Assembly: GCA_903865745.1 (NCBI GenBank)
Contig: CAIPKV010000071.1
Coordinates: forward strand, 1-64,000
Direction of reading: 5' to 3'
DNA length: 64,000 nt
Origin: an uncultured Verrucomicrobia subdivision 3 bacterium
Lineage (GTDB): Bacteria; Verrucomicrobiota; Verrucomicrobiia; Limisphaerales; UBA11358
Each line of letters opens with the position of its first letter. Position 1 is the stretch's first letter. The notes under the pieces are model-generated. The model was given only the letters and a program-made list of their open reading frames with translations, did not search any database and was not told the DNA's origin. The position numbers were made by a program, and so were the translations under genes. Below, piece after piece: positions 1-60,407 of this stretch.

Positions 1-126
1 GCGAGATGCGACATCCGAGAGGCGAGATGCGACATCCGAGAGGCGAGATGCGACATCCGAGAGGCGAGATGCGACATCCGAGAGGCGAGATGCGACATCC
101 GAGAGGCGAGATGCGACATCCGAGAG
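1..126. repeat. Array A1: 6 identical tandem 21-bp units (gcgagatgcgacatccgagag), cut by the window start
   Basis: Direct reading: perfect copies start at 1, 22, 43, 64, 85 and 106. On the minus strand the unit reads GTCGCATCTCGCCTCTCGGAT. Confidence 0.97.
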
Positions 127-205
127 GCCCTTTTCCAAAGGAAACAAGGCTTTTGGAGCGGATTTTCAGCGAAATTCAAGCCCAAAGTCGCCTAAAACGC
201 CTCGT

Positions 206-23106: not shown

Positions 23107-23295
23107 GTAAACGCCTTTGCGTAGCTGGTAAACGTCTTTTTCTACTATGTAAACGTCTGTTTGCGGGTCGTAAACGTACAAGTGGAGGGTGTAAACGTCT
23201 TTTTGTGCCCGGTAAACGTCCGTTTGCCCCTCGTAAATGTCTGCTTGGGGGGTGTAAACGTCTGGTTGCACCCGGTAAACGTCTGGCTGCACCGG
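23107..23295. repeat. Array A3: 9 exact-length 21-bp units, core GTAAACGTCT + about 11 nt variable
   Basis: Unit starts 23107, 23128, 23149, 23170, 23191, 23212, 23233, 23254, 23275; GTAAA invariant in all nine units. Confidence 0.97.
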
Positions 23296-23369
23296 ATAAA
23301 TAGCTTTTTTACACATCTAAATCATTTAAACCTCTCAAAAAGCTATTTACGGAGCGCAACCAGACGTTT
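23277..23369. repeat. Inverted repeat at the edge of array A3
   Basis: 23277-23309 aaacgtctggctgcaccggataaatagcttttt; reverse complement of 23337-23369 is aaacgtctggttgcgctccgtaaatagcttttt (about 27/33 identical). Confidence 0.9.
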
Positions 23370-32814: not shown

Positions 32815-33045
32815 GCTACTGCTCATCCAGCTACGGCTACTGCTTACGCATCCACGGCTACTGCGTGCTCAACTACCGCTACTGCTTACGCACCTACGGC
32901 TACTGCGTGCGCAACTGCCGCTACTGCTCACGCATCTACGGCTACTGCGTGCGCAACTGCCGCTACTGCTCACGCATCTACGGCTACTGCGTACGCAACT
33001 GCGGCTACCGCTCACGCATCTACGGCTACTGCTCATCCATTCGCC
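32815..33045. repeat. Array A4: 11 tandem 21-bp units, core GCTACTGC (minus strand GTAGC), alternating two unit types
   Basis: Unit starts every 21 nt from 32815 to 33025; units 5 and 7 identical (gctactgcgtgcgcaactgcc), 6 and 8 identical (gctactgctcacgcatctacg). Confidence 0.97.
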
Positions 33046-33198: not shown

Positions 33199-33921
33199 AT
33201 GACCTCAAAAACTATGAAACATAACTCTTATTATCCGCCAGGTCAGCCTGCCCAGATTGTCTGGCTCACGACCTTTGGCAACGAAATCCAAGCCCTCGGT
33301 CCCGGCTTAGGCTACACGGCGCTGCAAATCGCCGCCATGGTGGCCGATTGCCGCTGGATTATCTACCTGCTGCAAGCCTGGCTACCCGCCACGCGGCACT
33401 GGTCGCAGAACGGTACGCATACGGTGGCCGACGCCCTCACCGGCGACGGCAGCAAACTCATGGTGTTACCCGTTTACCTCGCCCCGGATCTACCGGAAGG
33501 CGCGGTGCCGGTAAATACCGGTGCCCTCAACCGCATCTTTGCGGTGGCGCAAGATATCAAGAACGGCGGTAAATGTTCTGAAACGGATCAAGTTAAACTC
33601 GGGATTCTGGGCACGGCGGCGGTCGGACCGGATATGACCAGCATCCAACCGGTGTTCAGCCTCAGCATCGTGGGTGGACAAGTGGTGTTGCATTCAGGTT
33701 TCGGCGGTTATTCCGCCTACCTGGACGCCATCGAATGGCGGGTGAACCGGAACGATGGCAAGGGCAACGGGCCCCTGGTCATGACCACCTCGCAGAACTA
33801 TACGGACCTGCAACCGTTTCCCGTCGCAAGCACGGTCTGGACTTATAGCGGCATTTTTCTATTGAATAATGTGCGCGTGGGCGTCTGGAGCCAGCCCGTC
33901 AGCATCGCCGTGCAGGCGTGA
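33199..33921 (+). CDS. Hypothetical protein
   Basis: 240-aa ORF with intrinsic terminator downstream; no family recognised. Confidence 0.6.
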   Translation: MTSKTMKHNSYYPPGQPAQIVWLTTFGNEIQALGPGLGYTALQIAAMVADCRWIIYLLQAWLPATRHWSQNGTHTVADALTGDGSKLMVLPVYLAPDLPEGAVPVNTGALNRIFAVAQDIKNGGKCSETDQVKLGILGTAAVGPDMTSIQPVFSLSIVGGQVVLHSGFGGYSAYLDAIEWRVNRNDGKGNGPLVMTTSQNYTDLQPFPVASTVWTYSGIFLLNNVRVGVWSQPVSIAVQA

Positions 33922-54733: not shown

Positions 54734-55122
54734 GCTTGGCAGAGGGATTCTGCCAGTTGGCAGAACAAAAAGACGGCTTGGCGGAACACTTCCGCCAACT
54801 GGCCGAGCCAAAAGGCGGCTGGCAGAGCCATTCCGCCAACTGGCGGAATGGTTTGACGGCTTGGCAGAATGATTCTGCCAACTGGCGGAGCCGAAAGTCG
54901 GTTGGCGGAGCAACTCTGCCAATTGGCGGAGCAAAAGGATGGCTTGGCGGAATGATTCTGCCAACTGGTCGAGACCAAGGACGGCTTGGTCGAGCCAAAG
55001 GTTGGCTTGGTCAAAGGCTTCCGCCAAGGGGCGGGGAGTCCGGGCGGTCTGGCCGGGCATGGCTGCCAACTGGCCGGGCGTCTCGACAGCTTGGCGGAAG
55101 GTAGCTGCCAAGGGGTGGCGGG
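54734..55122. repeat. Array A5: degenerate 21-bp units in a 42-bp super-period, core TTGGCRGA...TCYGCCAA
   Basis: e.g. gcttggcagaatgattctgcc / aactggcggagccgaaagtcg; several units are near-perfect palindromes (ttggcggaacacttccgccaa, ttggcagaatgattctgccaa). Same core as A2. Confidence 0.93.
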
Positions 55123-58718: not shown

Positions 58719-59516
58719 TTAGACGGCAATCGGCGCTTTGATGGCCGGATGCGGGTCGTAGCCGACCAGCTCGAAATCTTCAAACTTGAAATCGTGGATG
58801 TCCTTCACCGCCGGATTAAGCTTCATCTGCGGCAGCGGACGCGGCTCGCGCGCGAGCTGGAGCTTGGCCTGTTCCAGATGATTCGCGTAGAGATGCAGGT
58901 CGCCGAAGGTGTGGACGAAATCGCCCGGCTTCAGGTCGCACACCTGCGCCACCATGCGCGTGAGCAGCGCGTAGCTGGCGATGTTGAACGGCACGCCGAG
59001 AAACAAATCCGCGCTGCGCTGATAAAGCTGGCAGCTCAACTCGCCGTCTTGCACGAAGAATTGAAACATCGTGTGGCACGGCGGTAACGCCATCGTCTCG
59101 ATCTCGCCCGGATTCCACGCGCTGACGATGAGCCGGCGGCTGTCGGGATTCTTTTTGATGGAAGCGACGACGTGGTCGATCTGGTTGATGCTCCGCCCGT
59201 CCGCCGTGCGCCAATCGCACCATTGCGCGCCATAGACGCGGCCGAGGTCGCCGGTCGCTTTATTGGCCCATTCATCCCAGATGGTGACGCCGCGTTCCTG
59301 AAGCCAGCGGACGTTCGTCTCGCCGCGCAGGAACCAGAGCAGTTCGTAAATGATGGACTTGAGGTGAAGTTTCTTGGTGGTGAGGACGGGAAAATTCTGG
59401 CGCAAATCAAACCGTGCCTGCGCGCCGAACACGGAATAGGTGCCGGTGCCGGTACGGTCGGCCTTGAACTTGCCGTGGTCGAGGACGTGCCGGAGCAAAT
59501 CGAGGTATGCAATCAT
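58719..59516 (-). CDS. thyA: Thymidylate synthase
   Basis: [86 protein letters not shown]. Confidence 0.97.
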
Positions 59517-59726
59517 CGCGGGGAAAAGTTAAACACGAAAGCCGCGAAAGACAGCAAAGAAATCAGTCGCCAAGTTCATGCATCAACCCGAATCACATCG
59601 GTCTCGGTTCGCACAAAGCGTGGCAACTGTCTCTAATTGACCACCTCAAACGCGCCAATGGTCAGCTCGAAGCCTCAAATCATCGTTGCGAGGCTCATTA
59701 TGGGACATTTTATTCGTGAAATAGTG

Positions 59727-59936
59727 GTCGAAACGCGTCAAAAGTCCGTCGCAGGTCTCCCAATTACCGTCGCAAGTGGTCCGGAGGCCGTCGCAGCTCG
59801 TCCGAACCCCGTCGCAGGTGCCCCGAAGGTCGTCGCAGGTCGTCCGATCGGCGTCGCAAGTCTCCCGAAGCCCGTCGCAGGTCATCCGCAAGCCGTCGCA
59901 GGTGGTCCGGAGGGCGTCGCAGGTCGATTTTCACCC
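59727..59936. repeat. Array A6: about 10 units of 21 bp, core GTCGCARGT..CCG
   Basis: Exact 21-nt spacing of GTCGCA at 59748, 59769, 59790, 59811, 59832, 59853, 59874, 59895, 59916; degenerate edge units at 59727 and 59937. Confidence 0.97.
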
Positions 59937-59999
59937 GTCGCCGGCGTTCGGACTGAAATCGGCTAGCCTCACCGGACGTTTGCTGCAAAACTGCGCGCC

Positions 60000-60407
60000 A
60001 TGCGAATCCTCGCCCTCGATCACGGAACCAAGCGCATCGGCGTCGCCGTCAGCGATGAGACCAAAACCATCGCGATGCCGCTCGAATACATTCTCGCGGA
60101 GCCGTTCGCCGCGTTTCTGGAGCGGCTCAAGCAGATCCTCGTCGAGAAGGAGGTTGATCTCATTCTCATTGGCAATCCGCGCAACATGGACGGCAGCTAC
60201 GGTCCGGCGGCGCAGAAGGTGCAGACCTTCGTCGGCGTCCTGAAAACTGCCGTTACGGTACCCATCAAGTTGTGGGATGAGCGCCTGACCAGTTCGCAGG
60301 CGAATAAGATCTTGATTCAAGGCGGCGTCCGGCGTGATCAGCGCAAGGAGAAGGTGGATAAGATGGCCGCCGCGATCTTGTTGCAAAGCTATCTGGACGG
60401 GATTTGA
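60000..60407 (+). CDS. ruvX: Putative Holliday junction resolvase YqgF/RuvX
   Basis: MRILALDHGTKRIGVAVSDE...LWDERLTSSQA. Confidence 0.93.
   Translation: MRILALDHGTKRIGVAVSDETKTIAMPLEYILAEPFAAFLERLKQILVEKEVDLILIGNPRNMDGSYGPAAQKVQTFVGVLKTAVTVPIKLWDERLTSSQANKILIQGGVRRDQRKEKVDKMAAAILLQSYLDGI

Follow-up and report, generated by a model that had tools for sequence, protein, structure and literature searches.

The thyA-ruvX intergenic region contains an array of 21-bp units

Within the window, by which we mean the entire 64,000-nucleotide stretch of DNA that was analyzed, the divergent genes thyA and ruvX are separated by an intergenic region containing an array of 21-bp units, here designated A6 (Table 1). 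The word GTCGCA starts at positions 59748, 59769, 59790, 59811, 59832, 59853, 59874, 59895, and 59916, with a step of exactly 21 bp, which bears out the first-pass annotation of nine consecutive units at exact 21-bp spacing. Alignment of the units likewise agreed with the column conservation described at that stage, positions 1-6, 9, and 21 being invariant and positions 13-15 strongly conserved. The extent of the array had to be revised. It had been placed at 59727-59936 and described as filling the intergenic region; the perfect units occupy 59748-59936, the flanking units at 59727 and 59937 are degenerate, and 230 bp more (59517-59747) separate the perfect units from thyA.

The lag-21 identity of A6 was 0.69 (over 168 bp), whereas 300 shuffles of the 4 kb around it never exceeded 0.40. 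Column permutation gave P = 0.0017 for the invariant block of 7 bp, and the probability was below 1 in 100,000 assuming equal rates per column. An averaged signal for an internal repeat at the half-period (10-11 bp) was absent, and covariation in the GTCGCA units was confined to neighboring columns.

Table 1. Positions of genes, arrays, and associated elements in the window
Feature	Position	Strand	Description
Perfect array	1-128		GCGAGATGCGACATCCGAGAG; at contig end
Array	23107-23316		core GTAAACGTC
Gene-linked array	32815-33045	+	core GCTACTGC (GCTACTGCt.aCgCA.CTaCg)
Array-linked family gene	33199-33921	+	N-terminal part helical, C-terminal part FnIII-like; immediately 3' to the array at 32815-33045
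Array	54737-55007		core TGGCnGA with dyads
thyA	58719-59516	-	thymidylate synthase, PF00303
Leader motif	59625-59650	+	AACTGTCNCTNNTTGACCACCTNAAA; common to 21-bp arrays with other cores in array-bearing genomes
Leader-to-array spacer	59651-59726	+	same part A/T-tracted in several other elements
Degenerate first unit	59727-59747	+	GTCGAAACGCGTCAAAAGTCC; begins GTCGAA
A6 array	59748-59936	+	nine 21-bp units, consensus GTCGCAgGTcgtCCgaa.gcC, GTCGCA invariant
Degenerate last unit	59937-59957	+	GTCGCCGGC...; begins GTCGCC, runs into the ruvX promoter block
ruvX-proximal conserved block	59953-59999	+	tTGAAATCGGCtCGCC...; kept in array-less relatives; element directly upstream
ruvX	60000-60407	+	PF03652

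A6 is noncoding and its predicted RNA folding is unexceptional

The open frames crossing A6 had been judged unlikely to be coding, and this was confirmed by the even spread of changes over the three codon positions (14/12/11). As a control we used a viral contig match of the same repeat pattern, an array truly coding for a 7-residue repeat, in which the changes were distributed 53/1/0, that is, 53 of 54 at one codon position. Furthermore, units of 20 bp occur within GTCGCA arrays elsewhere, and each of the six frames is interrupted by stops in several sister arrays. A protein-coding 7-residue repeat was rejected on these three grounds. An RNA hairpin was also rejected for A6, as GTCGCA arrays lack a dyad and the folding of A6 RNA was no better than that of shuffles on either strand (z scores of +1.4 and 0.05); an Rfam search gave no match in the window. 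Self-complementary units were found in approximately 40% of arrays versus 5% expected by chance, but the GTCGCA arrays, unlike the others, had no dyad excess. The asymmetry of G.T versus A.C in the stems, by which an RNA strand was sought, was uneven among arrays and had no consistent tie to leader orientation.

Arrays of period 21 with differing cores are found throughout the genome

The source genome (G000) comprises 3.6 Mb in 87 contigs, its closest named relatives being Verrucomicrobia subdivision 3 / Limisphaerales MAGs, and approximately a quarter of it was read as stretches; this and the other assemblies are MAGs with mechanical gene calls. Of 51 short-period repeats in 890 kb, 44 had a period of 21 or a multiple. 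We found 54 arrays in 980 kb, or one per 18-20 kb of a sample in which some stretches had been picked for arrays or transposases, and this scales to some 200 per genome. The arrays of this genome are intergenic and contain roughly 8-19 units, with a core particular to nearly every array. The window alone has four more 21-bp arrays besides A6, no two with the same core (Table 1). Steps between units were exactly 21 bp in 547 of 580 cases; 20-bp steps were rare and mostly in GTCGCA arrays. A6 is one member of a genome-wide array class and not a local feature, and its significance is genome-wide, beyond the field of view of the first-pass annotation.

GTCGCA arrays were present in 8 of 59 relatives, the source genome itself counted, two of which (G014 and G017) have only near-perfect arrays of a different type. 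In samples of 20-40 kb, 21-bp arrays were found in G017, G020, and G026 and in none of eleven other congeneric species. The window also has tandem repeats of the heptamers AAATCGT, ATTTACG, and ATCGTAA at 246-277, 1143-1174, and 1196-1226, just before type II secretion-like genes; these are a separate repeat class.

Genes of a fast-evolving family usually have an array 5' of them

Listing the genes beside arrays revealed a recurrent, fast-evolving family of 205-300 amino acids, with the array always 5'. Because these seeds came from array neighborhoods, the link was retested using proteins found by sequence search alone. Among 45 such genes of the genus, a few of which were original seeds, a 21-bp array was located within 900 bp upstream in 29 and downstream in none. 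Outside the genus an array was upstream of approximately 13 of 15 evaluable genes, a second class included, and every core was different. By genome, the evaluable genes with an upstream array were 7 of 7 in G306, 2 of 2 in both G137 and G340, 2 of 3 in G083, and 0 of 1 in G084. In another bacterial family, a near-perfect 12-unit array, AAAATGCATGTGCGCTACGAT, is found in L436 (G340:C22) upstream of a family gene at 1135-1776 on the minus strand. A palindromic 20-bp array (GACGGCAAAGTC...) at L059:2370-2680 also adjoins a family gene.

Secondary structure was judged from sequence for two branches of the family. The branch in alignment A4, including the product of window gene 33199-33921, has a helical N-terminal part and an FnIII-like end, while the branch in alignment A5 looks all-helical and ends in W..ASHVEK. 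Neither was convincingly matched in Pfam, NCBIfam, PHROGs, PADLOC, or PDB sequences, and no recognized DNA-binding domain was found in the family. A single-sequence model of the 33199-33921 protein had a pLDDT of 30 and was set aside. This protein and that of L205 are 59% identical, and their arrays are unlike.

The closest gene of the A5 branch in the source genome, C79:73569-74249, adjoins the C79 GTCGCA array, and GTCGCA arrays also lie upstream of homologues in G015, G020, G021, G023, and G026. Subfamily f was present in all six genomes having degenerate GTCGCA arrays. On the sense strand, six f genes have 8-13 copies of TGCGAC upstream and no GTCGCA. The GTCGCA word is kept across species whose linked proteins share only 50-70% identity, and related f genes have the cores GTCGCA, TCCGCA, CCGCAC, CGCGCA, and TGCACA, which are concerted variants. 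In 7 of 12 cases the f gene is separated from its array by a promoter of the form TTGnnn-N16-CATAnT, which occurs in 2.5% of random windows; lying beyond this promoter, the array is not the 5' UTR of the f gene. In the source genome, the C79 copy is gene-linked and A6 is a solo copy. Of the 54 arrays sampled in that genome, about 45 had no family gene beside them; A6 and approximately four fifths of the arrays are solo copies.

Some arrays share a leader and flanking sequences

The leader AACTGTCNCTTTTTGACCAC was found 5' of A6 (at 59625) and of arrays with very different cores in five array-bearing genomes, and was not found in four array-free genomes searched. Most arrays lacked a detectable copy, and the leader contains a -35-like TTGACC directed into the array. 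Between a leader-like motif and the array, phased A-tracts recur every 9-10 bp or so at L185:17749-18063 (G017, with flank to 18180), which suggests curved DNA adjoining arrays.

Three elements of the source genome have common flanks, with the entire array core differing. Near-identical flanks with wholly different dyad cores (GGATG..CATCC versus AGTAC..GTACT) were observed at L200:388-681, L213:150-380, and L201:1393-1623, and also at G000:C13:32439 and G000:C29:10334; such elements have apparently undergone concerted turnover within a fixed frame.

The elements could be delimited at one shared end (the leader); within this limit, target-site duplications and terminal inverted repeats were not seen, and no transposase was found. 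In array-bearing genomes, 5 of 13 genes for Y1 (RAYT-type) transposases were within approximately 1.3 kb of a 21-bp array (L337, L338, L342, L343, and L347), yet Y1 genes were present in 17 of 18 genomes, including array-free ones, and we rejected the transposase as the driver. A viral or plasmid origin was rejected as well, since phage and plasmid records held no similar arrays; the IMG/VR pattern matches, among those with units listed, look like coding repeats or chance.

A6 was gained in this lineage

The thyA-ruvX spacer is 483 bp in the window versus 69, 69, and 111 bp in the three relatives that keep these genes adjacent. The three short spacers hold no array and represent the empty orthologous site, with the ruvX-proximal block conserved among the relatives and the additional DNA located directly upstream of it. 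A6 was gained in the lineage after divergence from these relatives, and the idea that the array is conserved at orthologous ruvX loci was rejected.

The local regulatory role that the first-pass annotation implied for ruvX or thyA was not upheld, given the array-less orthologous spacers. Regulation of ruvX is also not supported because solo arrays occupy every type of gap. Of 37 solo arrays, 16 are in codirectional, 11 in divergent, and 10 in convergent gaps, about the random ratio, which argues against solo arrays generally regulating their neighbors. Relative to thyA, A6 has the order seen at f genes (gene, leader, and outward-pointing array), and thyA does not belong to the array-linked family.

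Discussion

We propose, with a probability of roughly 45%, that A6 is a solo copy of a gene-plus-array element whose array is a DNA platform bound by a putative, likely cognate, protein. The full element would consist of a gene for a 205-300 amino acid protein, a promoter, sometimes a leader and A/T tracts, and then some 8-19 units of 21 bp, with the array outside the transcribed part of the gene. The array would act as DNA, presenting one recognition core per two helical turns on a single face. The units would be bound cooperatively, most likely by the product of C79:73569-74249 or by a partner. We infer recognition by a cognate protein; array and binder would co-evolve, and their cores would then change together. 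A6 and the other solo arrays would be scattered copies of the platform, either tolerated or serving in spreading, anchoring, or partition, and would not be promoters of their neighbors. Judging by presence or absence, the element is presumably mobile. In favor of the proposal are the predominance of period 21 with no half-period signal, the 5' placement of arrays at family genes from several families and two classes, the tie of GTCGCA arrays to subfamily f, the promoter separating array and f gene, the unexceptional RNA folding of A6, the empty orthologous spacers, and the concerted cores of related f genes. Counted against it are the absence of a recognized DNA-binding domain, the FnIII-like end, which would be unusual for a DNA-binding protein, the unrelated cores beside some close proteins, and the many arrays without a gene.

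Among the alternatives, the arrays could be MITE-like, nonautonomous mobile DNA in which leader and array are moved by some enzyme, with the gene as cargo and the array at ruvX having no function of its own. A single leader heading arrays of different core and missing from the four array-free genomes searched, the lineage-specific gain at ruvX, near-identical elements at two G020 loci, the patchy distribution inside one genus, the random gap types, and the 5 of 13 Y1 genes within about 1.3 kb of an array are all in keeping with such an origin. Passive cargo, however, needs no conservation of core blocks, and these are conserved within arrays and, for GTCGCA, across species; in addition, terminal inverted repeats and target-site duplications were not seen, Y1 transposases are found in array-free genomes too, and the leader accompanies only a minority of arrays. 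We consider this explanation unlikely, while giving it some weight. Slippage minisatellites, whose conserved blocks would reflect chance and shared recent ancestry, could account for the perfect arrays at contig ends, the variable unit numbers, and the concerted change of cores inside an array. This is quite improbable given a single period of 21 over many unrelated sequences in several families, a 7-bp invariant block at P = 0.0017 or lower, retention of GTCGCA over species with linked proteins 50-70% identical, and arrays near the gene family on its 5' side only.

The excess of self-complementary units (about 40% of arrays versus 5% expected), the joint change of both arms in some arrays, and the leader's TTGACC directed into the array might instead point to transcribed repeat RNAs, with hairpin units or the core serving as a trans-acting protein or RNA target, for example as a sponge. 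Such RNAs would not be expected to hold a strict 21-bp step, and the dyad-free GTCGCA arrays, the unremarkable stability of A6, and the absence of an Rfam match in the window make this improbable, if a shade less so than slippage. The reading first implied, in which A6 is an operator array acting in cis on ruvX and/or thyA, would be in keeping with its position directly upstream of the conserved ruvX promoter-like block. That block is nonetheless kept by array-less relatives, solo arrays are equally common in convergent and divergent gaps, and the GTCGCA family is tied to a different gene; we regard this as the least probable of the explanations.

Returning to the gene-plus-array element, our results suggest that it extends across the phylum Verrucomicrobiota and was hitherto undescribed. 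More tentatively, at somewhat less than even odds, it may constitute a new class of bacterial element, in which a fast-evolving orphan protein family and its own 21-bp arrays would co-evolve, the period being kept while the word turns over in concert, with hundreds of solo arrays chromosome-wide as protein targets. Homology searches would miss a noncoding class that conserves period and not letters and is tied to an orphan gene family phylum-wide. If protein and array do co-evolve, the matched protein-DNA pairs would amount to a natural series in which concerted change of a recognition word can be tested, and the system would be a bacterial parallel to drive-like systems. The class would also explain some of the DNA between genes in these uncultured bacteria.

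Relation to known systems

In the open-access literature we found no described system with this combination of features, and nothing relevant on 21-bp intergenic arrays or on such arrays before a gene family. The iterons bound by Rep at plasmid origins are direct repeats near 20 bp, spaced about two helical turns apart, beside an AT-rich stretch and 5' of a gene. The 21-bp arrays resemble them in their direct repeats of about 20 bp at helical spacing, their array-specific sequence, their AT-rich neighbor, and their place directly 5' of a gene. Unlike iterons, they are chromosomal, number about 200 per genome with dozens of cores, and in many cases lack a gene, and the linked family had no Rep-type domain in Pfam, NCBIfam, PHROG, or PDB searches. 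REP/BIME sequences, which go with RAYT (Y1) transposases, are repeats scattered between genes, many of them palindromic, and a rarer copy is linked to a gene. The 21-bp arrays are likewise dispersed, intergenic, and often palindromic, with gene-linked copies in the minority, but are built of strict 21-bp tandem units whose core varies by array, and no transposase is encoded by the linked gene; moreover, the GTCGCA unit is not palindromic and Y1 genes are not confined to array-bearing genomes. A CRISPR locus consists of a leader and then an array with conserved and variable blocks, an order the 21-bp arrays share, but here the conserved block is 6-10 bp, the variable block is biased and not unique, the units are without viral origin, and no Cas gene came to notice next to the arrays.

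Borgs, which are extrachromosomal elements of archaea, carry pervasive, fast-evolving tandem repeats (PMC9879509). In contrast to those repeats, the 21-bp arrays are chromosomal and bacterial, have a single period, and are accompanied by a linked gene family. Genomes of Beggiatoaceae contain approximately 170 intergenic sets of direct repeats of the heptamer TAACTGA, patchy in distribution and of unknown function (PMC4679880). The 21-bp arrays are similar to these in being patchy intergenic sets of direct repeats and in their number. The Beggiatoaceae repeats, however, are a single unvarying word of 7 bp immediately before start codons, with no linked family, whereas the arrays described here vary in their word and keep to one period.
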